32,954 nt of DNA from Rhodospirillales bacterium. GTDB lineage: Bacteria > Pseudomonadota > Alphaproteobacteria > Rhodospirillales > Defluviicoccaceae. The notes under the pieces were generated by a model. It did no database searches and had not been told where the DNA came from. It saw nothing but the letters and a program-made list of their open reading frames with translations. Below, piece after piece: positions 1 through 31,142 of the stretch; the first letter of the stretch is position 1; every line of letters begins with the position of its first letter. The stretch lies in assembly GCA_025458035.1 (NCBI GenBank), contig JALOTH010000012.1, positions 1 to 32,954 on the forward strand, written 5' to 3'. The position numbers and the translations under genes were made by a program.

Positions 1-882
1 ACTCAGCCGCTTCAGGATGTCGTCAAGCTGTTCGAGCGAACGATAGTGAAGGACGACACTGCCAGCGCCGGCACGATGACGGATTTCGACGGTTAACCCG
101 AGGCGACCGCTCAAGTCCCGTTCCAGCGCGGCGATATCGGCGGTCTTCGCGGCGAGGGCGCCGGGAGCGGACCGGCGCCGCTGCGAACGGGCGGCGGGAC
201 CATCGCCACGGGACTGAGCGACAAGCCGTTCCGTCTGCCGGACATTGAGGGCACGCCGGGCGACGGTGCGGGCGAGGACTTCCGGATCCGCCGCGGCAAG
301 CAGCGCGCGGGCATGCCCCGCCGTCAGCAGGTTGGCGTCGAGCATCGCCTTGACGCCGTCCGGCAGCGCCAGCAGGCGCAGGGTGTTGGCAACGTGGCTG
401 CGGCTCTTGCCGATGCTCTCCGCCAGCGCCTCCTGGGTATGGCCGAATTCGTTGATCAGGCGGCGATAGCCCTCCGCTTCGTCGAGCGGTGACAGATCCT
501 CGCGCTGCAGGTTCTCGATCAGCGCGATTTCCATGGCCTCGCGATCGGACAAGGCCTTGACCACCACCGGCACTTCGTGCAGCTGCGCCAACTGTGCGGC
601 GCGCCAGCGGCGCTCGCCGGCGATGATTTCGAAACGCCCCGCCTCATCGGCCGCGGCACGCACAAGGATCGGCTGCAGGACCCCTTTCGCGGCGATCGAC
701 TGGGCAAGGTCGCGCAGGTCATTTTCGGTCATCCGGCGCCGCGGCTGGAAGCGGCCGGGCCGGAGACTTTCGATTGGCAGCGACCGGGCGCCGGGGGCCG
801 CTGCGCCGGCGTCGGCATCCTCGCCGAGCAGTGCCGAGAGGCCGCGGCCGAGGCTCCGGCTGCGCTTGGTCTCGCCGCTCAC
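1..882 (-). CDS. parB: Chromosome partitioning protein ParB (C-terminus runs off the left edge)
   Basis: Manual minus-strand translation from GTG at 882: VSGETKRSRSLGRGLSALLGED...IESLRPGRFQPRRRMTENDLRDLAQSIAAKGVLQPILVRA...FEIIAGERRWRAAQLAQLHEVPVVVKALSDREAMEIALIENLQREDLSPLDEAEGYRRL... This is the typical ParB/Spo0J N-terminal domain plus HTH. No internal stop; GTGA overlap with parA. It is absent from the ORF track because the frame is open at the edge. Confidence 0.96.
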   Translation of the reverse strand, partial: MSGETKRSRSLGRGLSALLGEDADAGAAAPGARSLPIESLRPGRFQPRRRMTENDLRDLAQSIAAKGVLQPILVRAAADEAGRFEIIAGERRWRAAQLAQLHEVPVVVKALSDREAMEIALIENLQREDLSPLDEAEGYRRLINEFGHTQEALAESIGKSRSHVANTLRLLALPDGVKAMLDANLLTAGHARALLAAADPEVLARTVARRALNVRQTERLVAQSRGDGPAARSQRRRSAPGALAAKTADIAALERDLSGRLGLTVEIRHRAGAGSVVLHYRSLEQLDDILKRLS

Positions 883-1703
883 GGCTGCACCGCAATGCCG
901 TCGCGGCGCAGGACCTCGCCGGCAAGGTGAATGTAGGCCTGCGAGCCCGCACAGTGCGTGTCGTAGACGAGCACCGGCCGGCCGTGCGAGGGGGCTTCGG
1001 AAACGCGCACGTTGCGCGGGATGACGGTGCGGAAGACGCGCTCACCGAAGTGGGCGCGCACATCATTGGCAACCAGCTCGGACAGCTTGTTGCGTTTATC
1101 GAACATCGTTAACACAATACCTTGTATCTGAAGCCGGGAATTGAAGCTGCGGCGGACACGCTCAATGGTCTTCACGAGGTGGCTGACGCCTTCGAGCGCG
1201 AAGAACTCGCACTGCAGCGGCACGAGGACGGCGTCGGCGGCGGCGAGGGCGTTGACGGTGAGCAGCCCCAGCGCCGGCGGACAGTCGATGAAAACGTAAT
1301 CCCAGGCGCCGGCGGCGCCGGCGAGTGCCGCCGTCAGGAACGTTTCCCGTTCCGGCATCGCCACCAGCTCCACCTCGGCTCCCGACAGCTCGACGCCGGA
1401 CGGCACGACCTCAAGGCGGGGAACCAGCGTCGGTCTCGCCGCCGCACGGACCGCCACCTCGCCGATGAGCACCTCATAGCTGCCGGGACGGCGCTGGCCG
1501 TGGGCGACGCCAAGGCCGGTTGAGGCATTGCCCTGCGGGTCGAGATCGAAGACGACGACGCGGCAGCCGGCAGCGGCGAGGGCGGTGCCGAGGTTGATCG
1601 CCGTTGTCGTCTTGCCGACGCCGCCTTTCTGATTGGCGATGGCAATGATTCGCGGGCCAGTACGGGACGGCGCCGGATCTGTCATCGCCGCAGCGGTCAA
1701 CAT
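879..1703 (-). CDS. parA: Chromosome partitioning ATPase ParA/Soj
   Basis: RIIAIANQKGGVGKTTTAINLGTALA deviant Walker A; DYVFIDCPPALGLLTVNAL; adjacent to parB. Confidence 0.97.
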   Translation of the reverse strand: MLTAAAMTDPAPSRTGPRIIAIANQKGGVGKTTTAINLGTALAAAGCRVVVFDLDPQGNASTGLGVAHGQRRPGSYEVLIGEVAVRAAARPTLVPRLEVVPSGVELSGAEVELVAMPERETFLTAALAGAAGAWDYVFIDCPPALGLLTVNALAAADAVLVPLQCEFFALEGVSHLVKTIERVRRSFNSRLQIQGIVLTMFDKRNKLSELVANDVRAHFGERVFRTVIPRNVRVSEAPSHGRPVLVYDTHCAGSQAYIHLAGEVLRRDGIAVQP

Positions 1704-4212: not shown

Positions 4213-4228
4213 TGTTTCCCGTGAAACA
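4213..4228. promoter_or_regulatory. parS-like site TGTTTCCCGTGAAACA
   Basis: 15/16 match to canonical parS (one central substitution), in the mnmE/mnmG intergenic gap. Confidence 0.85.
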
Positions 4229-5960: not shown

Positions 5961-6232
5961 GTGCCCTTGGTCCCGCCGTCCACGGTCTTGCCGGCGGCGC
6001 CCGCCGCGCTGGACAGCTTCGACCACAGGAACTTCTGCCATTGCTCGAGGCCCTGGATGCCCGCCGGCAGCCACATGCTGAACAGCGCCTCCGGTTCCAT
6101 GGCGGCAAGCGTCTTTTTCATCCGCGCCTCGATCTGCGCCATCAGCGCTTCCTGCATCGGTTTGACGTCCGGCAGACCGAACAGCGTCCGAGCCTCTTCG
6201 GGCGTGCAGTCGATGTCGATATGGATCTTCAT
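5957..6232 (-). CDS. DUF6489-like small conserved protein
   Basis: [38 protein letters not shown]...; resembles small conserved alphaproteobacterial proteins of this type; overlaps the ferredoxin start. Confidence 0.75.
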
Positions 6233-6367
6233 GTGTTGCCACTCCAGGACTGGGTGCCGGCCGGCCGCAGCCTTGCCGCCCCTCGCACCATGCCCAAGTT
6301 ATGCAATAGGACTTGCGCGCGCAACGGTGTGACCGGGTCGCGTTCACCATCATCGGGGATCTTCGTC

Positions 6368-8431
6368 ATGACCGGCTCATCAACCACCCTCGCGCCCGCT
6401 TCCGGCAATCGCCTTGCCGCGGAAACCAGCCCCTACCTCCGTCAGCACGCCAACAATCCCGTTCATTGGCGGGCTTGGGACGCGGAAGCCCTGGCCGAAG
6501 CGAAGCGGCTGGACCGGCCGATCCTGTTGTCGATCGGCTATGCCGCCTGCCACTGGTGCCATGTCATGGCCCATGAAAGCTTCGAGGATGACGCCATCGC
6601 CGAGTTGATGAATGGCCTGTTCATCAACATCAAGGTGGACCGGGAGGAGCGTCCCGACCTCGACGCCCTATACCAGTCGGCGCTGGCGATGATGGGTGAA
6701 CACGGTGGCTGGCCATTGACGATGTTTCTGACCCCCGATGGCGAACCGTTCTGGGGCGGCACCTACTTTCCCCCGGAGCCGCGCTACGGCCGTCCCGGCT
6801 TCGGTCAGGTTCTGCGCCACGTTGCCACCCTTTACCGCAACGATGCCGCCGCCATCGCCAAGAACGTCGCCGCACTGCGCGAGGGGTTCGTGAAGCTGGC
6901 AACCCCCAATGCGGGCTCCGGCCTGTCCGTCGCCCTGCTCGACGAGGCGGCGAGTTCCGCCTTCCGCCTCATTGATCCGATCCGGGGTGGCACCGCCGGC
7001 GCGCCGAAGTTCCCGCAGCCGATCCTGCTGCGGCTGCTATGGCGAGCGTACCTTCGGACCCGACGCAATCTGTTTTCCGACGCCGTGACGCTGACCCTCG
7101 ACGCCCTCTGCCAGGGCGGCATCTATGACCACCTGGGCGGCGGCTTTGCCCGCTACTCCACCGACGTCGACTGGCTTGTGCCGCATTTCGAGAAGATGCT
7201 GTACGACAACGCGCTGCTGGTCTCGCTGCTGACGGAAGTGTGGCAGGAGACCGCCCGCCCGCTCTACGCCGTGCGCATCGCCGAAACGGTGCAATGGGTG
7301 CTGACCGAGATGGCGGTCACCGCTGACGACGGCGCGACGGCTTTCGCCTCCGCCCTCGATGCGGACTCCGAAGGCGAGGAGGGCCGTTACTACGTTTGGG
7401 ATGCCGCCGAGATCGAGGCGATCCTGGGCGCCGACGCCCCCCTGTTCGCCCGCACCTACCACGTGACGCCGGCGGGCAACTGGGAAGGCCGAACGATTCT
7501 GCATCGCGATCGGTCCGCGGGCCTGTTGTCAGAGGCCGAGGAACGGCGGCTCGCCGATGCGCGCACGCGCCTGCTCGCCGCCCGCTGGCAACGGGTGCCG
7601 CCGGCCCGCGACCACAAGGTGCTCGCCGACTGGAACGGCATGATGATCCGCGCTCTTGCGGACGCCGCGCCCGTGTTCGACCGCGCCGATTGGCTGGCCG
7701 CCGCCCGCTCGGCCTTTGCGTTCATCTGTCGCCACCTCACCGCCGCCGATGGCCGCTTGTTGCACACATGGTGCGACGGTAAGGCCCGCCACCCGGCGAC
7801 GATCGAAGACTACGCGCAGATGGCGGCGGCGGCGCTGGCGCTTCATCAGACGACGGCGGAACCGGTCTTCCTCGACCGCGCCGTCGCGTGGGTCGATATC
7901 GCCGACCGCCACTATTGGGATCACGTCCTCGGCGGCTATTTCCTGTCCGCCGACGACACGACGGACATCATCAGCCGCTCCAAGCCGATCGCCGATAATG
8001 CGACGCCATCGGGCAACGGTGCGATGCTGGAAGTGCTCGCGCGGCTGTTCCTTCTCACCGGCGAGGACCGCTATGGCGAACGGGCCGAGGATCTCGCCCG
8101 GCTGTTTTCGGGCGATCATCTGCAATATCTGCTTGGCATCCCTGGCCTGCTGACCCACTACGAGCTGCTGGCCAGCTCGCTGCAGGTGGTGATCATCGGC
8201 ACGGCGGACGATCCGGCAACGGCAGCATTGCATCGCACCGCCGTCACCGCCGCCGTCCCCAACCGCGTCGTCAGCGTCGTTGCCCCCGGCACGGCGCTCC
8301 CCGCCGGCCATCCGGCGGCCGGCCGTGACGCCATCCAAGGCCGGCCCACCGCCTACGTCTGCCGGGCGATGGTCTGCGGCCTGCCCATCACCTCGACAGA
8401 GGCGTTGCGCGCGGCCCTGCTGGCGACTTAG
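6368..8431 (+). CDS. Thioredoxin domain-containing protein, DUF255/YyaL (spermatogenesis-associated protein 20) family
   Basis: [29 protein letters not shown]...[20 protein letters not shown]...[14 protein letters not shown] hallmark motifs. The upstream extension of the ORF to 6041 is not family-like. Confidence 0.95.
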
Positions 8432-8442
8432 CCTTGCCGACC

Positions 8443-8913
8443 ATGGCTCACGTTTCGCTGCACAGCCCGTTCGGCTCACTCACCGTGTTCGAGGAAGACG
8501 GCGTCCTGGTCGCCCTGGAATGGGGCTGGTCGCCGGCCGCCGGCGTGTCGTCCGTTCTCGATCGGGCCATCCGGCAACTGGAAGCCTACTTCGACGGAGC
8601 CCTGACCGGCTTCGAGCTGCCGCTCGCCGCGGCGGCAACGCCGTTTCAGGCCCGCATGCGCGCCGCCATGGTTGCGATTCCCTATGGCGAGACCGTCAGC
8701 TATGGCGACCTCGCCCGCTGGCTCGGCAGTGCACCCCGGGCCGTCGGCCGGGCCTGCGCCCGCAATCCGCTTCCGGTGATCGTCCCCTGTCACCGGGTGC
8801 TTGCCGGCGGTGGCCGGATCGGCGGCTATTCCGGCGGCGTGGGCATCGAGACCAAGCGCGCGTTGCTGCGCCTCGAGGGCTGTCGCGGTGACCGCGAGAT
8901 CGTTGCATCCTGA
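8443..8913 (+). CDS. Methylated-DNA--[protein]-cysteine S-methyltransferase
   Basis: IPYGETVSYGDLARWLGSAPRAVGRACARNPLPVIVPCHRVLAGGGRIGGYSGG with the PCHR active site. Confidence 0.95.
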   Translation: MAHVSLHSPFGSLTVFEEDGVLVALEWGWSPAAGVSSVLDRAIRQLEAYFDGALTGFELPLAAAATPFQARMRAAMVAIPYGETVSYGDLARWLGSAPRAVGRACARNPLPVIVPCHRVLAGGGRIGGYSGGVGIETKRALLRLEGCRGDREIVAS

Positions 8914-8973
8914 CGGCTGTCACCGCAAACTCGGCGTCGCCGCGCCCGCCATTCGCTGTTGAAGGAGCCGCCG

Positions 8974-9951
8974 ATGCCGCACGCCATCCGCATTCACGCC
9001 TACGGCGGCCCCGAACAGTTGCGCTGGGAAGAGATCGAGGTCGGCGAGCCGGGACCGGGGCAGGTGCGGCTGAAGCAGACCGCCGTCGGCCTCAATTACA
9101 TCGATACCTATCACCGCACCGGGCTTTATCCGCTGCCGGCGCTGCCCGGCGTCCTTGGCATGGAGGCGGCCGGTATCGTCGACGCAGTGGGACCGGGGGT
9201 GACGGAATTCGTGCCCGGCAGCCGCGCCGCCTATGCCTCGCCGCCGCCGGGAGCCTACGCTGAAGTCCGGCTGGTGGCCGCTGACCGGCTGGTGCCGGTC
9301 CCCGATGACGTCAGCGACGAGCAGGCGGCCGCCGTCCTGTTGCAGGGAATGACCGCGTGGTACCTGCTGCGCCGCACGTATCCGGTGAAAGCCGGCGATA
9401 CGATCCTGATCCATGCGGCCGCGGGCGGCGTCGGCCTCATGGTGTGCCAGTGGGCGAAGGCCCTCGGCGCGACCGTGATCGGCACCGTCAGTTCGGACGA
9501 CAAGGCGGCGCTCGCCCATGCCAACGGCTGCGATCATCCGATTGTCTACACCCGGGAAGACGTCGTTGCGCGGGTGCGGGCGCTGACGCACGGCGAGGGT
9601 GTGCCCGTCGTCTACGACAGCGTCGGCAAGGACACCTTCACCGCATCGCTGGACTGCCTGCGCCCGTTGGGGCTGATGGTCAGTTTTGGCAACGCATCGG
9701 GGGCGGTGCCGCCATTCGAGCCAGCGATCCTGGCACAGAAAGGCTCGCTGTTCCTGACGCGCCCGACCCTTTTCCACTACACGTCGAATCGGCGAGAGCT
9801 TCTCGCCGCTGCCAGCGAACTGTTTGCGGTTCTGCGCTCTGGCGCGGTGCGCATTCACCTCAACCAGCGCTACCCCTTGAAGGATGCCGCGGTGGCGCAT
9901 CGCGACATTGAGGCCCGCCGCACCACCGGCTCCACCGTGCTGATCCCGTAA
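8974..9951 (+). CDS. Quinone oxidoreductase, zinc-independent MDR family (Qor-like)
   Basis: MPHAIRIHAYGGPEQLRWEEIEVGEPGPGQVRLKQTAVGLNYIDTYHRTGLYP...AAAGGVGLMVCQWAKALGATVIGTVSS; GAAGGAG Shine-Dalgarno before ATG 8974. Confidence 0.95.
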   Translation: MPHAIRIHAYGGPEQLRWEEIEVGEPGPGQVRLKQTAVGLNYIDTYHRTGLYPLPALPGVLGMEAAGIVDAVGPGVTEFVPGSRAAYASPPPGAYAEVRLVAADRLVPVPDDVSDEQAAAVLLQGMTAWYLLRRTYPVKAGDTILIHAAAGGVGLMVCQWAKALGATVIGTVSSDDKAALAHANGCDHPIVYTREDVVARVRALTHGEGVPVVYDSVGKDTFTASLDCLRPLGLMVSFGNASGAVPPFEPAILAQKGSLFLTRPTLFHYTSNRRELLAAASELFAVLRSGAVRIHLNQRYPLKDAAVAHRDIEARRTTGSTVLIP

Positions 9952-11906: not shown

Positions 11907-13003
11907 TAGCTTACTCCTTTATCTTCGGCCGGGCATGTCTCTTCAATAACGGCGCAGGGACACAGCCGAAGGTTCCGCCCGCACAACCGCCGTCCGCTAT
12001 CGGGAGCGGTGCTGCCGTCCCGCGTCAGAGCTGCCGTCACCATCGTCGCCAAACCATCAATGAACTCGGGAGCCGTGCCGACCGCCGCAACCCGTATGTA
12101 GGTGCGAATACCGAGGGCCATCGCCCGTTCGCGGTATTCCACATCAAGCTCAACCAACGTTTCCGAGTGCTCGGAGACGAACGCGATCGGCACCAGCACC
12201 GGAACAACGCCATCCGCCGCCGCCCGCTCGATTTCCGCTTCGGTGGACGGTCCAATCCATTCGAGCGGTCCGACGCGACTCTGATAGCAGACGCTGTGGT
12301 CAATGGGTGATCCCGGCTCCCCACCTGCCGCGAGTGCGTCGAGCACCGCCGCCGCTGTCCGCTCCACCTGCCACTGATAGGGATCGCCGCCGGCGATGAT
12401 GCGTTTCGGCAATCCATGTGCCGAGAACAGCACGCGCGGTCGTTCACCCTTGGGAACCGAGCGTAACGCCGCAGCGATCAGCGTGGCCTGTGCCGTGATC
12501 CAGCCGCGCGCCAGCGGATAGCAGCAGATGACCTGTGTCGGCACGTTCATTCGCGCCACACTGGCGGCCCGATGCCAGGCCGCGATCGAGGAGCCGCTGG
12601 TGGTTACCGAGAACTGCGGATAAAGCGGCAGCAGAACGATGTGATCGGGGCCAAAGCGGCGCACCTCATTTGCCGTCTCGTCACTCATCGGATGCCAGTA
12701 GCGCATGGCGATGAAGACCCGTGCTTCTGGCCAGATCGCCCGTAACCGGAGTTCGAGCGCCTGCGCTTGTTGCTGCGTCAGCGGCAGCAACGGCGAGGCG
12801 CCGCCCATCCGCGCATAGATTTCGCTGGCGATCGGCGCCCGCCGTCGCGCGATCATCCACGCCAACGGCCGGCGCAGCAGGGCCGGTACCGACAAGATCG
12901 CCGGGTCCGAAAACAGGTTCTGCAAGAACGGGCGGACGGCGCCCGGATGGTCAGGGCCGCCGAGGTTGAACAGGACGATGGCGGGGCGGCGCACGGCCGT
13001 CAT
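11906..13003 (-). CDS. hemH: Ferrochelatase
   Basis: AIVLFNLGGPDHPGAVRPFLQNLFSDPAI...RYWHPMSDE...LFSAHGLPKRII...PIAFVSEHSETLVELDVEY. Likely start ATG 13003 overlapping the hemE stop (ATGA); the ORF extends to 13015. Confidence 0.96.
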   Translation of the reverse strand: MTAVRRPAIVLFNLGGPDHPGAVRPFLQNLFSDPAILSVPALLRRPLAWMIARRRAPIASEIYARMGGASPLLPLTQQQAQALELRLRAIWPEARVFIAMRYWHPMSDETANEVRRFGPDHIVLLPLYPQFSVTTSGSSIAAWHRAASVARMNVPTQVICCYPLARGWITAQATLIAAALRSVPKGERPRVLFSAHGLPKRIIAGGDPYQWQVERTAAAVLDALAAGGEPGSPIDHSVCYQSRVGPLEWIGPSTEAEIERAAADGVVPVLVPIAFVSEHSETLVELDVEYRERAMALGIRTYIRVAAVGTAPEFIDGLATMVTAALTRDGSTAPDSGRRLCGRNLRLCPCAVIEETCPAEDKGVS

Positions 13004-14052
13004 CGTCGAGTCCACGCTCGGACCTGATCTGCGACCTGTGCGACGTGGTCTGGCGGCGTATGCGGCAAGATTCCATGACCCAGATTGAATACGAAACCGC
13101 CGCCCGAGAGGCTGGCCAGAATGCGCTGAACCTCTTCGTCGAGCGCCTGACCACCGTACATCAGCAAGAGATTATCGAGATTTCCTTGCACCGTTCCCCC
13201 GGTTTGCAGGGTCGTGACGGCCCAACTCAATGGCACCGTTGAATCAAGGCTGACGGCATCAACGCCCGTAATCGCGAGATAGGTGCCGTACATGGCGCCC
13301 GCTCCTCGCGGAAAGCCGATAATCGGCACCTGTGGATGGTCCCGCCGCAAAGCAGCAACGATTTGCTTCGTCGGTTGGATCACCCAAAGGTGAAATTCCG
13401 CCTCGGTCAGTTGACCCGCCCAACTGTCAAACAGCTGAACGGCGTCGGCGCCGTGACGGATCTGCTGTTCCAGGTGTTCGATGACGGCCTCGGTCAGGCG
13501 GTCGATGAGGCGGCCGAAACCTTTTCCATCCCGCCATCCCCAATGGCGGACCTGCTCACATGCCGTGCCGCCCCGTCCCTCGACCATGTAAACGGCAAGC
13601 GTCCACGGCGCGCCGGAAAACCCGATCAGCTCGGTGCCTGCCGGCAGTTTCGCCTTGAGACCCGACACCGATGCGTACACCGGCGCCAGTTGCGCGACAA
13701 AGCGGTCCGCGTCCCACGCCGGCACCGCTTCCGGCGTGCGGATCGGAGCCAGCATCGGTCCCACGCCTTCGACGAAGCGGACATCGCTGCCGAGCGCATG
13801 CGGGACGACCAGGATGTCACTGAACACGATCGCCGCATCCATGGCGTAGCGGCGCAGCGGCTGCAAGGCTGCCTCGATGGTAAGGTCGGGCCGATAGCAG
13901 AACCGCAGGAAGTCCGGTTCCTCGGCGCGCAGCTTCTGATACTCGGGCAGATATCGCCCCGCTTGACGCATGAACCAAAACGGTGGCCGAACCTGCCGCT
14001 CCCCGCGCAGCTCGGCGATGAGCGATGGCTGCTCCTGGGCTGGGCGGGTCAC
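13000..14052 (-). CDS. hemE: Uroporphyrinogen decarboxylase
   Basis: PPFWFMRQAGRYLPEYQKLRAEEPDFLRFCYRPDLTIEAALQPLRRYAMDAAIVFSDILVVPHALG; GTG start at 14052. Confidence 0.97.
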   Translation of the reverse strand: MTRPAQEQPSLIAELRGERQVRPPFWFMRQAGRYLPEYQKLRAEEPDFLRFCYRPDLTIEAALQPLRRYAMDAAIVFSDILVVPHALGSDVRFVEGVGPMLAPIRTPEAVPAWDADRFVAQLAPVYASVSGLKAKLPAGTELIGFSGAPWTLAVYMVEGRGGTACEQVRHWGWRDGKGFGRLIDRLTEAVIEHLEQQIRHGADAVQLFDSWAGQLTEAEFHLWVIQPTKQIVAALRRDHPQVPIIGFPRGAGAMYGTYLAITGVDAVSLDSTVPLSWAVTTLQTGGTVQGNLDNLLLMYGGQALDEEVQRILASLSGGGFVFNLGHGILPHTPPDHVAQVADQVRAWTRR

Positions 14053-14294
14053 GACGGACGGCTTTCGAGCCGGAGTTCGAGCGTTCCCTTCACCTTTCTC
14101 TTCCTTTAGAAACGAGTCTGGATGATGTAGTGGTCAAGCCAATAGCATGCATTACTCCTTTTCCACAGCCTATGCACCGGTTCCGCCGACCGCCATGCGC
14201 CGCCCCCGAGGGGGCCGGTGCCAACGCCTGTTTCGCTGCTTAGGCCGTTGGTTTTGCACACATCCAATTGTGAAGGCGGGGGTTGGGCAACAGG

Positions 14295-14326
14295 GATCGG
14301 CGGGTGCTCTTGGCGATCCGCCGATC
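14295..14326. repeat. 9-bp inverted repeat GATCGGCGG-N14-CCGCCGATC inside the candidate oriC
   Basis: Perfect arms at 14295-14303 and 14318-14326. Confidence 0.7.
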
Positions 14327-14431
14327 ACAGCTGTGGATGGTGAGCGGCGGCTGACTGGGTGCTGTGGACAAGCACCGCCTCCATCCTCTGACCCCAAGCA
14401 TCTGGTTTCGTCCGATCGGGTTGCCGGTCAC

Positions 14432-14440
14432 TTATCCACA
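14432..14440 (+). promoter_or_regulatory. Consensus DnaA box TTATCCACA
   Basis: Exact match to the high-affinity DnaA box. Confidence 0.85.
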
Positions 14441-14490
14441 GGAAAGCGTGTCAAAGCAGCCCCCATTCGCCGTCTGTAAAGGTCCTTCCG

Positions 14491-15096
14491 ATGCGTCGAC
14501 AGTTGAGTGTCTCCGTCTTCTCCGGCGTGGATCGCGCCCGCCGCCGGCAACAAAGTGAACCCGGTCCGGTTCCCGCGTCTGAGCCGTTCCGTGCGGCGGC
14601 TCCATGGTCGATGCCGATGCGGTCGTCGCTGGCTTCCGAACCGGGCGGGCCAGCACAGGCATCGCCACTGGAAGTGCTGGCGCGAGCGGAAGTCATCGTT
14701 GTCGGCGTCCCCGGCATTGGCAAGACGGCGATCTGCGAGTTTCTCAGCCGGCATGGGCTGCGTGCCGTTCCGGTGGAGCTGGAACGGGGGCGGGCCCTGC
14801 CGGAAGCCGTCATCAGGGCCCGTGGCCTGGTGATCGGGGTGATGATGCGGCCGGACCGGCTGATTGCGGAACGGCGCATGCGGACCGCGGCACAGCCGGA
14901 CCGCTCGGCCGACATCGATCCGCAATCCGTCCGTGACGAATTGATCGCTGCCCGTCGGCTGTTTACCGCTGCCAAGTGGCATATCATCGATATCAGTCAC
15001 CAGTCTTCGTCAGCGGTGGCGGCGCGGATGATTGCGCTGTGGCAGCGTCGACAAGCGGAAAGGCGTGTCGGAAACGAGACCGATCCCGCGGAATGA
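14491..15096 (+). CDS. DUF299/PpsR-like (kinase/pyrophosphorylase family) protein, N-terminally reduced
   Basis: LEVLARAEVIVVGVPGIGKTAICEFLSRHGLRAVPVELERGRALPEAVIRARGLVIGVMMRPDRLIAERRMR...SVRDELIAARRLFTAAKWHIIDISHQSSSAVAARMI resembles the C-terminal P-loop half of DUF299 proteins. The N-terminal half is not recognisable; start codon uncertain. Confidence 0.75.
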   Translation: MRRQLSVSVFSGVDRARRRQQSEPGPVPASEPFRAAAPWSMPMRSSLASEPGGPAQASPLEVLARAEVIVVGVPGIGKTAICEFLSRHGLRAVPVELERGRALPEAVIRARGLVIGVMMRPDRLIAERRMRTAAQPDRSADIDPQSVRDELIAARRLFTAAKWHIIDISHQSSSAVAARMIALWQRRQAERRVGNETDPAE

Positions 15097-15698
15097 ACCC
15101 AGCGCCGTCGTTGATTTTGGCATCGGCGAGCACGGTACGCGCCCGCATTCTCACCGCCGCCGGCATCAGCGTGAGCATCGAGCCCGCGCATCTCGACGAG
15201 GATGCCATCAAAGAGGAAGCCAAGGCGGCGAAGCTCAGCGCCGCCGATGGCGCGTTGCGTCTGGCCACGGCGAAGGCGATGACGATCAGCGGCCGGCGGC
15301 CGCGTGCCCTGATTATTGGCGCCGATCAGATGCTGGAATGCGCCGGTCGCTGGTTCGACAAACCGCGCGACCGTGCCGATGCACGGGAGAACCTGTTGTT
15401 TCTGCGCAGCCGCGAGCAGCATCTCGTGTCTGCCGTCGCTGCCGTCCGGGATGGTGTCGCGATCTGGCAAACGATTGACATCGCCCGCCTGTGGATGCGG
15501 CCGTTCAGTGAGTCGTTCCTGGATCGCTATCTGGAAATCGCTGGTGACGAAGTTTGTCAATCGGTGGGAGGCTGTAAGCTCGAAGGCCTTGGTATTCAGT
15601 TCTTCGAGCGCATCGAAGGCGATTTTTTCACCATTCTTGGCCTGCCGATTTTGCCGTTACTGGCGTTCCTGCGCGACTACGGCGCACTCGGCGAATGA
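15093..15698 (+). CDS. Maf-like nucleotide pyrophosphatase
   Basis: LILASASTVRARILTAAGI...LIIGADQMLECAGRWFDKPRDRADARENLLFLRSREQHLVSAVAAV; ATGA overlap with the upstream gene. Confidence 0.9.
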   Translation: MNPAPSLILASASTVRARILTAAGISVSIEPAHLDEDAIKEEAKAAKLSAADGALRLATAKAMTISGRRPRALIIGADQMLECAGRWFDKPRDRADARENLLFLRSREQHLVSAVAAVRDGVAIWQTIDIARLWMRPFSESFLDRYLEIAGDEVCQSVGGCKLEGLGIQFFERIEGDFFTILGLPILPLLAFLRDYGALGE

Positions 15699-16597
15699 AC
15701 CCCGCCTCGTCGCACCCGATCACCACAGCTGGCGCGGCTGTTGCGATAACCGGGCGCGCCCGCATCGCCGGCGTGATCGGCTGGCCGGTCGACCATTCCC
15801 TGTCACCGGTGCTCCACGGCTGGTGGCTGCATCACTACGGGATCGATGGGGCGTATGTCCCACTCGCCGTCCGTCCACCCGATTTGTCCGCTGCCCTTGC
15901 CGCCTTGCCGAAATTGGGCTTTGCCGGAGCGAACGTTACCGTCCCGCACAAGCAAGCGGCCGCGGCCTGCGTCGACGCCTTGACCCCGACGGCACAGCGC
16001 CTTGGCGCCATCAACACCATCATCATCGATGCGCACGGACGCCGGCTCGGCGACAGCACCGATGGTTTCGGATTTCTCGAAAACCTGCGCGAAGGCGCCG
16101 GCCACTGGCGGGCGGATCGTGGACCGGTGGTCGTTATCGGCGCCGGCGGCGCCGCGCGGGCGATTGTCGCCGCCCTTGCCGATGCCGGGGTCCCCGAAAT
16201 CCGGCTGTTCAACCGGACACGGGAACGCGCCGATCGCCTGGCGGCGGATCTGGGCGGACCGATCATCTGTCGGCGGTGGGAGGAGCGGCACGCGGCGCTG
16301 GCGACGGCTAGCCTGCTGATCAACACGACGACGCAAGGCATGACGGGCCAGCCGCCGCTGGACCTTGATCTTGAAACCCTGCCCACCGAAGCCGTGGTCA
16401 GCGATCTCGTTTATGTCCCGCTGTTAACCCCTCTGTTGGCAACGGCGCAGCGCCGGGGCAACGCCATCGTCGATGGGCTCGGCATGCTCCTGCACCAAGC
16501 ACGGGCCGGCTTTCGCGCCTGGTTCGGCATCGAACCGCAGGTCACCGCGGCACAACGGGCCTTCCTGCTTGCGGCTCTCAGCCAACACCAGCGTTAG
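15695..16597 (+). CDS. aroE: Shikimate dehydrogenase
   Basis: IAGVIGWPVDHSLSPVLHGWWL...GANVTVPHKQAA...GDSTDGFGFLENL...VIGAGGAARAIVAAL; ATGA overlap with maf. Confidence 0.97.
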   Translation: MNPASSHPITTAGAAVAITGRARIAGVIGWPVDHSLSPVLHGWWLHHYGIDGAYVPLAVRPPDLSAALAALPKLGFAGANVTVPHKQAAAACVDALTPTAQRLGAINTIIIDAHGRRLGDSTDGFGFLENLREGAGHWRADRGPVVVIGAGGAARAIVAALADAGVPEIRLFNRTRERADRLAADLGGPIICRRWEERHAALATASLLINTTTQGMTGQPPLDLDLETLPTEAVVSDLVYVPLLTPLLATAQRRGNAIVDGLGMLLHQARAGFRAWFGIEPQVTAAQRAFLLAALSQHQR

Positions 16598-17910
16598 AGG
16601 AATTTGACCAGGCTGAGCTGGCGCACCAGCGAAATCGCCTTGTACGCGGCCTCCAGCGCCGCGTTTGCGGACAGCAGCCGCGCCGATGCCTCGTTCGGAT
16701 CGGCGTTTTCCGTTTCGGCAATCTTGATCTCCAGCGTTGCGACAAATTCGTCCTGTCGCGATCGCGTCTCGTGCAGGAGCGATTGCTGAAACCCGAGTTC
16801 GCGGCGAACGTCGTCAAGGTTGCCGAGCCGCTCGCTGCCGAAGGGCGCCGGAAGGCTGGGCGCACGCTCCAAAGCCTGGTTGATCAAATCGATCGCCCAG
16901 CCGATGCGCTCCGGATGATGAGCGAGATCGCCTTGGCTTCCCGGCACACCCTGGGCGATCAATCCGAAAGCCCGCAGCGCCTTTTCAAATGCCGGATCGA
17001 CGGCATTGAGATCGAAGGTCTCCAACCGCTGGTCGTCAACACGATGCTGGTGCGCCTGTTCGTCGCCCTTGTACCAACGGCTCATGGACAGTGTTGCGGC
17101 TGCCGATTCGGGGCCGTCGGCGAGGGTGGCTTGTACGTCCAGCGAGACCTCGGCACTGAACGACAGCGTGCCACTGACAACCAGTTCATGGGGGCTTGGC
17201 TTGGCGACGACGGTATAGGACCCGCTATTGCCGAGGCTGCTGCCGGCAAGGGTGATGGTTGCGCCGACGGCGATCTGAGCGAATGGGGACGGCACCGCCG
17301 CGGTGTTCGCCGCGGCGATGGTGTTGCCGCCGGAGATGATCAGGCCCCCCGTGTCCGCCGATGTGAGTGTCAAATCTGCGCCGAGGTGGCTGTCGCGGGT
17401 CGGCGGGTAAAGCGTTTGTATGCCATCGTAGCGGTTTTGAAAGGCCGCCAGGTCCGAGAGGCCCAGGTCAACGGGGCGGGTTGCGGCGCGGGAACCCGAG
17501 AACAGGAAGCGGCCATCCGCCTGCGTGTTGAGAAAGGCTTGCACGTCGGTCATGGCCCGGAACGCGGCCAATTGGATTTCCTGCGCCTGTTCAGCCTTCA
17601 GCGGACTGCTGCCGCCCACCGTCATCAGCACCTCGCGAAATCCGCGCATCGAACCGTCGATGGCGGTCAGTGCCTTCTCGCCGATATCGAGCCGGCGCAG
17701 GTTCGCTTCGTTGCTGCGGGCCAGGCGGTCAAACGTAATCCGGCTCGTTTCCAAACGGAGCAAACGGCCGCTATCGGCAGCGAGGCCCTGATAGGTTGGC
17801 GCGCGCTTGCCACTGGCCACCTGCCAGTTGGCTTCATCGAGTTTTGCCTGCTGCGCGAATACGGCGCTCAGCATCCTGCTGTGAGATGCGTAGGTTGAGA
17901 TGCGGTCCAT
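16594..17910 (-). CDS. flgL: Flagellar hook-associated protein FlgL (flagellin-like)
   Basis: MDRISTYASHSRMLSAVFAQQAKLDEANWQVASGKRAPTYQGLAADSGRLLRLE...NTQADGRFLFSGSRAATRPVDL...ANAALEAAYKAISLVRQLSLVKFL; immediately downstream of flgK. Confidence 0.92.
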   Translation of the reverse strand: MDRISTYASHSRMLSAVFAQQAKLDEANWQVASGKRAPTYQGLAADSGRLLRLETSRITFDRLARSNEANLRRLDIGEKALTAIDGSMRGFREVLMTVGGSSPLKAEQAQEIQLAAFRAMTDVQAFLNTQADGRFLFSGSRAATRPVDLGLSDLAAFQNRYDGIQTLYPPTRDSHLGADLTLTSADTGGLIISGGNTIAAANTAAVPSPFAQIAVGATITLAGSSLGNSGSYTVVAKPSPHELVVSGTLSFSAEVSLDVQATLADGPESAAATLSMSRWYKGDEQAHQHRVDDQRLETFDLNAVDPAFEKALRAFGLIAQGVPGSQGDLAHHPERIGWAIDLINQALERAPSLPAPFGSERLGNLDDVRRELGFQQSLLHETRSRQDEFVATLEIKIAETENADPNEASARLLSANAALEAAYKAISLVRQLSLVKFL

Positions 17911-17924
17911 CGGCTAGGATCTCC

Positions 17925-20123
17925 TCAAGCGACTGCCCGCTCCAGAGCGTCGAACATCGCCTGGATGGTGCTCATGATACGGGCGGCGGCGCCGTAAGCC
18001 TCCTCATAGACGATCAGGTTCGCCATCTCCTCGTCCAGGTTGACGCCGCTGAACGACTGGCTCTGGGCGGTCAGGCTGTCCACCAGCGCCGTCTCGAATT
18101 CCGCCTCCTCGCTCTTGCTCGCAGCGTCGCGGGAGTGACCGGATACGATCGCCGTCGCATAGTCGGCCAAGCTCACCGAAAGTGATGCGATGGTGCCGGA
18201 ACTCGGCAGCGCCATCGGCATCGACAAACCGTCGGCGAGCTGCCGCGCGATGGCGCCATTGCCCGCACTGATGCCGTAGCGGCCGCCGAGACCTTCGCTG
18301 GGCTGCCAGGCCGGCTGAGCGCTTGCCAACAGCGAGGGAGCGCGCGAAAGGTCGCCGCGCACACCGATCTGGCCGCCGTAACCGATGTTCGACGGCGCCA
18401 GGGAGAGGTCGGCGAGAAGCCGGTTGCCGGCATTGCTGTCGTCGGCGAGCAGAAAGGTTCGGCCGTCCTGGCTGGTTACGACCAGCCGCTGGCCGCCGCC
18501 TTCACGGATGACATTGGCCTGAATGCCTGGCACCGTTGCCAACAGGCCGGCGATGTCGTCCAAGCTGGCTCCCGCCGGTACGGTGATACCGTCGACGCCG
18601 CCGGCGCCATCCGGCATGACGCCGCCGCTGTCGACCAGCTTCACGCTCGCTGGGGTCGCGGTCGTAAATCCGTTGACGAACAGTTGCGATGCATAGGCGA
18701 CAGGACCGTTACCGCCGACGAAAACATCATTCAGGCCAAAGAATGCGGAAAACCCGCTGGTGCTGCCGATGGTGCGCGGCTGACCGCTGAGATCGCCTGT
18801 GTCGACGGCATGGGTCAGTGCCGCCGGCTGTGCGGGCGCGCCAGTGCTGCCGTTGGCGATATCGAGAAGGCCAAATCCCAACCCCGGGTTGACAACGCTG
18901 ATGGTCAGCCGGCCGCCTGCATCAAACTGCACCGCCCCATCCGGCTGCAGCCATCCATCCATCGCCTGTTGGATGTCTGCGATGGATCCACCGGTGCCGC
19001 CGCCCAGCAATGTGCGCACCGTCGTCCGCCGCACCTCGTTGCCCTTGTCATCGAACAGGATCAGCGCGGTGTCCGCATCGCCGGCCCAGCTCAAAGTCTC
19101 GGCGGCCGCATTGACGACGGGCCGCGTGCCTTGCAGGCTGCTGGCACCGGGCCACGCCGTACCTTGGTTGTGGGCGGCATTGATCTGGTTGCGGAGCCCG
19201 GCAGCCAGCGTATCGATGGACGCCTGCAGATCGGCGAGCCGGCGGTCGCGCAGGTCGATGAGACCGGCCATGCCGCCGCCGCGAACCTCGGCGGTGATGT
19301 CGACGGTTGATCCGCCGATCGACAGCATGATGCCATCGAAGCCGCCGCCGCCCACGGTGACGCCGGCGGCGACGCTCGACGCCGGCCGGTGCGTCAGTTG
19401 CGCCGGCTGATCATCGACAAGGGTCCGCCCCGAGCCGGTAAAGACGACGACATCGCCTCGTGGCCGCGGATAGGTGCGAACGTCCATCAACTCCGACAAA
19501 CGATTGAGCGCGAGATCGCGCGCATCCTCGGCATCGGCCGCGCTCTGGTTCATCTCGTTCGCGCGCACGATCTTGTCATTGAAGTCGGCGATGCGACGCA
19601 GAAGGGTGGAGACTTCATCGGCGTTCGCCGCGATCTCGCGATCGGCCTCGGCGCGCAGATCCTGGACGGTTGCGCTCATCTGACGCAATGAGGCGCTTGT
19701 CGTCTCGGCCTGGCGAATGACCTCGCGCTGATTGAGAGAGCTTTCCGGCGTCGTTGCCAGAGACTCGAACGCGGCCTGCAACTGGGCAACGGCGTGCGGC
19801 AGCGCGGCATCGGCATCGACGCCGCCAAATTGATCCTGGACGCGCGCATCGTAGCGGAGATGGACGCGCGCCGCCTGCATCGTCGACAACTCGACCCGCA
19901 GATTGCGCAGCAGCCCCTCCTCAACAGAACGCTGAATGCCGGCCAGTTGCACGCCGCGCCCGCCGCCGGCGATCGTATTGGTCTGAAAGCTGACGGTACG
20001 CCGGGCGTAGCCGGCGTTGTTGGCATTGGCGATGTTCTGCGCGGCGACATCCAGCGCCTGCTGTTGAGCCAGCAAACCGGAATTCGCCGTTCGTAATGCG
20101 GTAAACAGGTCGCCGACGATCAT
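17925..20123 (-). CDS. flgK: Flagellar hook-associated protein FlgK
   Basis: MIVGDLFTALRTANSGLLAQQQALDVAAQNIANANNAGYARRTVSFQ (rod/hook N-terminal motif); C-terminal SGVNLDEEMANLIVYEEAYGAAARIMSTIQAMFDALERAV. The ORF extension to 20243 is rejected. Confidence 0.95.
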   Translation of the reverse strand: MIVGDLFTALRTANSGLLAQQQALDVAAQNIANANNAGYARRTVSFQTNTIAGGGRGVQLAGIQRSVEEGLLRNLRVELSTMQAARVHLRYDARVQDQFGGVDADAALPHAVAQLQAAFESLATTPESSLNQREVIRQAETTSASLRQMSATVQDLRAEADREIAANADEVSTLLRRIADFNDKIVRANEMNQSAADAEDARDLALNRLSELMDVRTYPRPRGDVVVFTGSGRTLVDDQPAQLTHRPASSVAAGVTVGGGGFDGIMLSIGGSTVDITAEVRGGGMAGLIDLRDRRLADLQASIDTLAAGLRNQINAAHNQGTAWPGASSLQGTRPVVNAAAETLSWAGDADTALILFDDKGNEVRRTTVRTLLGGGTGGSIADIQQAMDGWLQPDGAVQFDAGGRLTISVVNPGLGFGLLDIANGSTGAPAQPAALTHAVDTGDLSGQPRTIGSTSGFSAFFGLNDVFVGGNGPVAYASQLFVNGFTTATPASVKLVDSGGVMPDGAGGVDGITVPAGASLDDIAGLLATVPGIQANVIREGGGQRLVVTSQDGRTFLLADDSNAGNRLLADLSLAPSNIGYGGQIGVRGDLSRAPSLLASAQPAWQPSEGLGGRYGISAGNGAIARQLADGLSMPMALPSSGTIASLSVSLADYATAIVSGHSRDAASKSEEAEFETALVDSLTAQSQSFSGVNLDEEMANLIVYEEAYGAAARIMSTIQAMFDALERAVA

Positions 20124-20151
20124 CGCCGTTGCGCTTTCGTCCAGGTTTGGG

Positions 20152-20610
20152 TCAAAGGGACCGGCATAGCGCCACCGGCGCCGCCGAGGATCGCCGGCCG
20201 GCCGCTGTTCCGGCAGCACCATCCCGCCCATAGGGCGCGGCACTGGCGGCTGCCTCGCGCGCCGCCTCCGCGACGCAGGCGATCAGCCGGCGTTCGGCTT
20301 GCACAGCGGCGGCCAGCCGCCGTTCATGGGGTGCCAGCGCGGCACGCAGTGCGCTCGCCGACGCGGCGAGTTTGGCGCGGTCGGCCTCGGGCAAAGGACC
20401 CGCCGCCGCCAGCGCTCGCACGTTTGCCTCATAGCTCTTCGCCAGCGCCGTCGCCTCCTGCGCGGCTGCCGCCAGCGCACTGCGGTCGCGATCGCGCAGG
20501 GCGGCGATGCTGTGCTCGGCGCTCGCCGTGAGTTGTGCCGAGAGACGGACGAGGTTGGCGATGGCGTCCTCGATCGCCGCCGGCGCGATCGTTGCGGCCG
20601 CCGCGCTCAT
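20152..20610 (-). CDS. FlgN-like flagellar export chaperone
   Basis: [67 protein letters not shown]...; position between flgJ/cheL and flgK; ATGA overlap with the upstream gene. Similarity is compositional and positional. Confidence 0.65.
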   Translation of the reverse strand: MSAAAATIAPAAIEDAIANLVRLSAQLTASAEHSIAALRDRDRSALAAAAQEATALAKSYEANVRALAAAGPLPEADRAKLAASASALRAALAPHERRLAAAVQAERRLIACVAEAAREAAASAAPYGRDGAAGTAAGRRSSAAPVALCRSL

Positions 20611-20906
20611 CGACCCGCACCTTCCTGCAGGGCGAGCATCTCGCGATACACATGATCGGCCAGTCCGATGCCGCCGGCGCGGGCAATCGCCTTGCCGAAT
20701 TCTTCGATTTGCAGCGACCGCCACGTTTCCTCCGCATGGCCGCCGCCAAACGGCGCCTCCGCCGCAATGGCCGTGAACATGGGAGCCAGCATCTGCGCCA
20801 GAAACACGCCTTCGAATTCCTCGGCGGCGGCGCGCAGCGCCGCGGGATTGCCAGTCTTCGGGATTGCCGGCATGGCCATGGGCAACGTCACATCGTCGAT
20901 CATCAC
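20607..20906 (-). CDS. Rod-binding protein (FlgJ N-terminal domain / CheL)
   Basis: ALRAAAEEFEGVFLAQMLAPMFTAIAAEAPFGGGHAEETWRSLQIEEFGKAIARAGGIGLADHVYREML. Confidence 0.9.
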   Translation of the reverse strand: MMIDDVTLPMAMPAIPKTGNPAALRAAAEEFEGVFLAQMLAPMFTAIAAEAPFGGGHAEETWRSLQIEEFGKAIARAGGIGLADHVYREMLALQEGAGR

Positions 20907-22051
20907 ATCACCTCGATGTCCGCTTGCAGGGCGCCGGCCGCCTTGATGGCCTGCAAGATCGCGATCAGATCGCGGGGGCCGATTCCCAGCGCGTTGAGGC
21001 CGTTGACCAGTTCCTGCAGGGTGACGCCGCTTTTGACCACCGCCAGCCGGCGCTGCTGGTCTTCGTCGACACTGACATCGGTGCGCGGCACGACGACGGT
21101 CTGGCCGCGCTCGCTGAAGGCATTGGGCTGAGAGACCTGCGGCGTCTCGGTGATTGTGATCGTCAGATTGCCCTGGGCGATGGCGACCGTGCTCACCCGC
21201 ACGTTTTCGCCCATGACGATGATGCCGGACGTCTCGTCAATCAGCACGCGGGCGGGCTGGTCAGCTTCCACGAGCAGCTGTTCGACGTCGGTGATCAGGT
21301 TGACAACGTTACCGTCGTAGCGGCTCGGCACGTTCAGGTGGACAGTCGTCGGATCGCTGGGCATGGCCACGCCATCGTCCAGAAAGGCGTTGATTGCCTG
21401 GGCAATGCGCCGTGCCGTGGTGAAATCGGGATTGCGCAGGTTGAGCTTCACCGTGTCGCGGTTGGCCATCTCGTACCCGACCTCCCGCTCGATGATCGCC
21501 CCGTTCGCGATCTTGCCGGTGGTCGGCACGCCCTTGACGACGCTTTCGGCGGTGCCCTTGGCGGAGAAGCCGGCCACCGTCACCTGGCCCTGTGCAACGG
21601 CGTAGACCTCGCCGTCGGCGCCGAGCAGCGGCGTCACCAGCAGGGTGCCGCCGAGCAGGCTGGTGGCATCGCCGAGGGACGATACGGAGATATCGAGCGG
21701 CGTTCCCTGGCGAGAGAACGCCGGCAGCGACGCCGTCACCATCACGGCGGCGACGTTCTTGGAATCGATGCCCTTTTCCGTCGGCTTGACGCCGAGGCGA
21801 TTGAGCATGGACTGCAAGCTCTGCGAGGTGAAGCCGCCCCGCTTCAGCTTGTCGCCGGTGCCATTGAGGCCGACGACGAGGCCATAGCCGACAAGCTGGT
21901 TATCGCGAACCCCCTCGACGGTCACCATGTCCTTGATTCGTGACGGGACCGCTGCCGCCATTGGCACGAACGAGGTGATCGCGGCGATCGCGGCGCCCGC
22001 GAACACGGCCGCCCTCGCCATCATCCAGCCTGACTTCTTCGCGCTGAGCAT
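20903..22051 (-). CDS. flgI: Flagellar basal body P-ring protein FlgI
   Basis: SRIKDMVTVEGVRDNQLVGYGLVVGLNGTGDKLKRGGFTSQSLQSMLNRLGV...ARVLIDETSGIIVMGENVRVSTVAIAQGNLTITITETPQVSQPNAF...LQELVNGLNALGIGPRDLIAILQAIKAAGALQADIEVM. Confidence 0.98.
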   Translation of the reverse strand: MLSAKKSGWMMARAAVFAGAAIAAITSFVPMAAAVPSRIKDMVTVEGVRDNQLVGYGLVVGLNGTGDKLKRGGFTSQSLQSMLNRLGVKPTEKGIDSKNVAAVMVTASLPAFSRQGTPLDISVSSLGDATSLLGGTLLVTPLLGADGEVYAVAQGQVTVAGFSAKGTAESVVKGVPTTGKIANGAIIEREVGYEMANRDTVKLNLRNPDFTTARRIAQAINAFLDDGVAMPSDPTTVHLNVPSRYDGNVVNLITDVEQLLVEADQPARVLIDETSGIIVMGENVRVSTVAIAQGNLTITITETPQVSQPNAFSERGQTVVVPRTDVSVDEDQQRRLAVVKSGVTLQELVNGLNALGIGPRDLIAILQAIKAAGALQADIEVM

Positions 22052-31077: not shown

Positions 31078-31106
31078 TTGCGATGACAAGATCGCGCCCA
31101 TATAGT
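31078..31106 (+). promoter_or_regulatory. Sigma70-like promoter for dksA
   Basis: TTGCGA (31078-31083), 17-bp spacer, TATAGT (31101-31106); 36 bp upstream of the dksA ATG. Confidence 0.55.
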
Positions 31107-31142
31107 GCGCGCCAATAATGGGGATGCCATCACGTCAAACGG

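Follow-up and report, generated by a model that had tools for sequence, protein, structure and literature searches.

A very probable hemE-linked chromosomal origin with an apparently eroded unwinding module in an uncultured Defluviicoccus-group alphaproteobacterium

The origins of Caulobacter crescentus (Cori) and Rickettsia prowazekii and those predicted for Wolbachia and Ehrlichia are bounded by hemE and a COG1806 gene (PMC1914354). A site for IHF (WATCAN5WTR) is listed as usual in such origins (PMC1914354), and Cori carries weak G- and W-boxes for DnaA (PMC4468827). In Bacillus subtilis, the basal unwinding system (BUS) consists of DnaA boxes, a GC spacer and DnaA-trios, a trio having a central A (PMC8287927). 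In the present study, the gap at positions 14053-14490 beside hemE is very probably the chromosomal oriC of an uncultured Defluviicoccus-group alphaproteobacterium that belongs to the same GTDB genus as Defluviicoccus sp. SSA4. Positions refer to the window, i.e. the whole stretch of 32,954 nucleotides that was analysed, which is contig C9 in its full length; the draft assembly comprises 239 contigs and 3.1 Mb, with a completeness of 96%.

The gap belongs to the already known hemE/COG1806-linked kind of alphaproteobacterial oriC. It has the boundary genes of the origins above and resembles them in its length of about 400 bp, in the presence of several DnaA boxes, in an A+T content above that of the genome and in a GC-skew minimum, the latter seen in relatives of the focal organism. 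It differs from them in that CtrA and IHF consensus sites are absent and the COG1806 neighbour is cut down to its C-terminal half. The boxes are of the high-affinity type TTWTNCACA, in contrast to the weak ones of Cori. Overall, this is an origin of an ordinary kind in the expected place, for which the evidence is good, with one unusual feature, an unwinding module that appears eroded.

Genes around the gap

The non-coding gap of 438 bp is bounded on the left by hemE (13000-14052, minus strand) and on the right by the remnant of a COG1806/PF03618 kinase-PPPase gene (14491-15096, plus strand), its length falling within the interval of about 300-600 bp taken for this class. The original prediction of flanking genes diverging from the gap was confirmed for hemE and for maf and aroE (15093-16597, plus strand), all transcribed away from it; the neighbour announced as a ppsR/DUF299 gene, however, is not whole. 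The corresponding ORF matches positions 134-254 of the 256 positions of the profile, and as the match starts only at residue 62, the right edge of the gap is uncertain. The full-length PPPase gene of the focal genome was found on another contig (C185). Similarly, in all nine relatives of the family with a hemE match, PPPase is absent from the origin and encoded in full length elsewhere. The focal C-terminal half has stayed at the ancestral place, with a four-base overlap with maf. It carries a P-loop (VGVPGIGKT) and may be a relic, or else a small protein that has taken on a new role. A partial PPPase match (profile positions 200-256) at a contig edge of a same-genus relative (G001:C36:5-175) is perhaps another remnant.

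At the left end of the window, parB and parA (1-1703, minus strand) are followed by two parS-like 16-mers (2313-2328 and 4213-4228) with one mismatch each. The predicted vicinity of parAB/parS was thereby borne out for parA and the two sites; parB is partial at the contig end and was named by its position only. Between mnmE and rho, genes for a DsbH-like thioredoxin, an O6-methylguanine methyltransferase and a zinc alcohol dehydrogenase were observed on the plus strand (6041-9951).

The gene order is rearranged to the right of aroE, where flgL, flgK and flgI follow directly; in the same-genus relative G003, two ORFs are found there which have the size of coaE and dnaQ, judged by size only. The flagellar genes (16594-22051) are oriented head-on to the origin, and the breakpoint of the rearrangement lies about 2 kb from it. 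Misassembly inside the gap was considered and rejected: the order hemE-gap-PPPase-maf-aroE is common to many other families, and the contig therefore looks sound at the gap.

DnaA boxes, unwinding stretch and control sites

Three forward TTWTNCACA boxes had been predicted at 14159, 14252 and 14432, together with two boxes on the opposite strand, and all five are present as placed. The consensus box TTTTCCACA (14159-14167) has the same register as the forward TTATCCMCA box of relatives. It is followed by the consensus box TTTTGCACA (14252-14260) and by the perfect box TTATCCACA (14432-14440), located close to the right edge; a forward TTATCCMCA is found there in several relatives. On the minus strand, TTGTCCACA (14363-14371) displays one mismatch and is also found in the hemE gap of the complete same-genus genome, and the weak box CCATCCACA (14332-14340) displays two. 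When the gap was shuffled 3000 times with dinucleotides preserved, the count of three consensus boxes (shuffle mean 0.02) was never reached, nor was that of four TCCACA cores (mean 0.24). The 3.1-Mb draft genome contains 35 TTWTNCACA in total, and the gap holds the only cluster of three, the simulated chance of three boxes within 282 bp anywhere in the genome being about 1e-4. The gap also contains more consensus boxes than the gaps of the genus relatives. The DnaA protein of the focal genome is intact and displays the box-binding motif GGRDHTTVMHAV.

The runner-up in the genome is a pair of TTWTNCACA in a short non-coding gap on contig C158. At about 14132-14370 of that contig (L252), TTTTCCACA, TTTTGCACA and TAATCCACA were observed within about 210 bp of non-coding DNA; this second DnaA-box-rich place possibly has a regulatory role.

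The gap has a G+C content of 59.6%, compared to 66.4% in the window, which serves as a proxy for the genome. A less GC-rich stretch had been proposed for unwinding, and the region 14088-14162, at the hemE edge, is indeed the least stable part of the gap and ranks second for low stability among the 75-bp stretches of the 33-kb window. In relatives, an AT-rich element is found at the corresponding position, and the stretch is a candidate DNA unwinding element. The repeats of the original prediction exist as well. An inverted repeat of 9 bp (GATCGGCGG/CCGCCGATC, 14295-14303/14318-14326), for which no evidence of function was obtained, is equalled in size in 6% of the shuffles, and as for the direct repeat GCTGTGGA (at 14330 and 14361, 31 bp apart), a repeated 8-mer occurs in 75% of them. 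Both are within chance and were rejected as evidence for an origin.

The predicted absence of a CtrA site was borne out, as a search of the gap with the consensus TTAA-N7-TTAA and TTWW-N7-TTWW, the mark of a Caulobacter-type Cori, found none. The IHF consensus WATCAN5WTR, a usual but not defining feature of hemE/COG1806-linked origins, was not found in the gap either. Control by CtrA in the style of Caulobacter is thus not indicated. No Rfam family matched the gap.

GC skew in relatives and on the focal contig

As the whole-chromosome skew of the focal genome is out of reach in a draft of 239 contigs, the skew was read in relatives. In the complete genome of Defluviicoccus sp. SSA4 (G004, CP058705.1), sampling every 109 kb placed the skew maximum near 1.8 Mb, with the skew falling until about 3.78 Mb. 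A continuous reading of 401 kb narrowed the cumulative minimum to the surroundings of hemE, and at higher resolution it fell at 3,781,884. This position lies inside the 5' end of hemE (3,781,105-3,782,094), 210 bp from the gap. The dnaA gene of SSA4 is located at 2.94 Mb, 840 kb from this minimum, and an origin next to dnaA is therefore not supported in this relative. In two further complete genomes of the order, the regional minimum and the 5' end of hemE were 230 bp apart in one and 3.6 kb apart in the other. Among five draft relatives, the distance was 74-556 bp in four and 4.8 kb in one. The position of the skew minimum had been proposed as a check of the original prediction, and the result in relatives is in its favour: the candidacy of the gap as oriC is supported by the unique cluster of boxes together with skew minima at hemE in eight relatives.

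On the focal contig itself, a skew of -0.041 (s.e. 0.015) to the left of the gap gives way to -0.005 (s.e. 0.009) on the right, where it does not become positive. The gene-sense GC3 skew on the right is -0.130 for head-on and -0.056 for co-directional genes, and +0.015 on the left side. The signal of the contig itself is weak, yet it has the right direction.

The hemE-side module in relatives and in the window

In the hemE gaps of relatives, a common arrangement was found next to hemE, made of AT-rich DNA, three to five TWG triplets, GGTGAATnn-CGGGGATTA, which represents two inverted weak DnaA boxes, and a forward TTATCCMCA. Counting of k-mers in 104 hemE-upstream regions showed that TTATCCACA, TTATCCCC/GGGGATAA and TWG triplets are in strong excess, the triplets lying nearly all on the plus strand and, for the most part, 30-90 bp away from hemE. 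The enrichment of TTATCCCC matches that of TTATCCAC (72 and 56 counts, with 2-3 expected), and TAG (117) and TTG (115) contribute about equally to 304 triplets. The class-wide triplets and inverted TAATCCCC-like boxes can be seen, for example, in the gaps L099, L101 and L113. Viewed from the opposite strand, inverted tandem boxes, short spacer, triplets and AT-rich DNA occur in the order and on the strand of the BUS, whose rule requires a central A, in contrast to the mixed triplets of the relatives. In the partial literature collection that was searched as text, no origin paper naming TTATCCCCA boxes was found, and none joining DnaA-trios, Alphaproteobacteria and oriC, save a survey of Epsilonproteobacteria.

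A model of the module (R1) was built from the sequences of 31 relatives, with the window excluded, and applied with a threshold of E <= 0.01. It matches 173 of the 188 genomes of the order (92%), nearly always in one copy each. In a sample of 143 genomes of the class, 77 match. Wherever hemE coordinates could be compared (26 genomes), the distance between the match and the 5' end of hemE was 57-173 bp. This weighs against another reading, in which DnaA would bind the gap for regulation, at the promoters of hemE and of PPPase-maf-aroE, or be titrated by its boxes. In favour of that reading, DnaA boxes are present in further non-coding gaps of the genome (e.g. C158:14140-14348); against it stand the typically single-copy module adjoining hemE in every cross-checked genome and the skew minima at the hemE gap in eight relatives, and this reading is highly improbable.

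At E <= 0.01, R1 also matches each of the nine relatives of the family that gave a hemE match. The focal genome is an outlier of the family, as R1 gave no match anywhere in it at this threshold. Its best match (13.9 bits, C185:8762-8792) lies inside a coding ORF. Unfiltered, R1 scored best in the window at 31103-31128, with a chance-level 5.7 bits; the gap ranked next, at 3.8 bits. A profile of the left-edge module, also built with the window excluded, has its best match in the window at 14122-14177, ungapped and in the right place and orientation. The score is 5.3 bits, compared to 14.5-53.7 bits in 53 relatives (leave-one-out), and is reached by 3 of 2000 shuffled gaps. The alignment in register at a low score suggests that the register survives and that the inverted boxes are eroded. 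AT-rich DNA, triplets and the forward box are kept in register at 14119-14167. The triplet repeat TGG ATG ATG TAG TGG (14119-14133, plus strand) is the counterpart of the DnaA-trio-like TWG tract of relatives (GGATGTTGTAGTGGT in G003, locus L099; GGATGATGTAGTGGT in the window). In the ungapped profile alignment, the two inverted boxes, GGTGAATCA-tGGGGATTA in relatives, correspond on the minus strand (14137-14154) to AGCCAATAG (14137-14145) and ATGCATTA (14147-14154), the latter having apparently been eroded from GGGGATTA. A BUS calls for three or more 3'-NAN-5' triplets no further than 16 bp from a DnaA box. The window retains the AT-rich DNA and the triplets, but beside the latter no recognisable box in the BUS orientation was found within 14119-14167. 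Judged from these alignments, the unwinding module kept by nearly all relatives is badly worn in the focal organism. The oriC of SSA4, in its hemE-maf gap (CP058705.1), is alike in place, in the skew minimum at the gap and in the TTGTCCACA box; in contrast to the focal one, its module is intact (31-32 bits), and its gap contains neither a PPPase remnant nor a consensus TTWTNCACA box.

With such a low profile score, a right arm rearranged after aroE and a flat right-arm skew, one may ask whether this lineage now starts replication at another site, the hemE gap being a former origin in decay. This is very improbable, since three consensus boxes survive in the gap, more than in the gaps of genus relatives, neither another box cluster nor an intact module was found elsewhere in the draft genome, and parA and parS are still adjacent to the gap. 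With an assembly 96% complete, an origin missing from it is possible but unlikely.

The preferred reading thus remains an origin in the hemE gap, whose place comes from comparison; the steps of DnaA binding, opening, loading and segregation are given as we infer them. From the consensus, DnaA would bind four boxes, three forward (14159, 14252, 14432) and one reverse (14363). Its assembly would proceed toward the hemE edge and open the unstable stretch at about 14088-14162, and by analogy with the BUS of B. subtilis, DnaA may keep the triplets at 14119-14133 single-stranded. Helicase loading would follow, then forks in both directions, as the skew in relatives and the gene polarity in the window indirectly suggest. 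ParAB/parS, 10-12 kb away, would segregate the new origins. As the two inverted weak boxes appear eroded, opening in the focal genome probably leans more on the forward boxes.

It is conceivable, if doubtful, that most members of the order open their origin via the hemE-side module with W-centred triplets, partly outside the A-centred trio rule, and that the focal lineage has lost the inverted boxes, with a different DnaA geometry or a moved origin as the outcome. The module makes testable the use by DnaA of TTG as well as TAG triplets, and the fate of an origin once the adjoining boxes erode. Being typically single-copy, the hemE-side module offers a simple origin finder for Alphaproteobacteria. 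For an uncultured bacterium available only as a draft, placing the origin allows growth-rate estimates from read coverage and the correct orientation of contigs.
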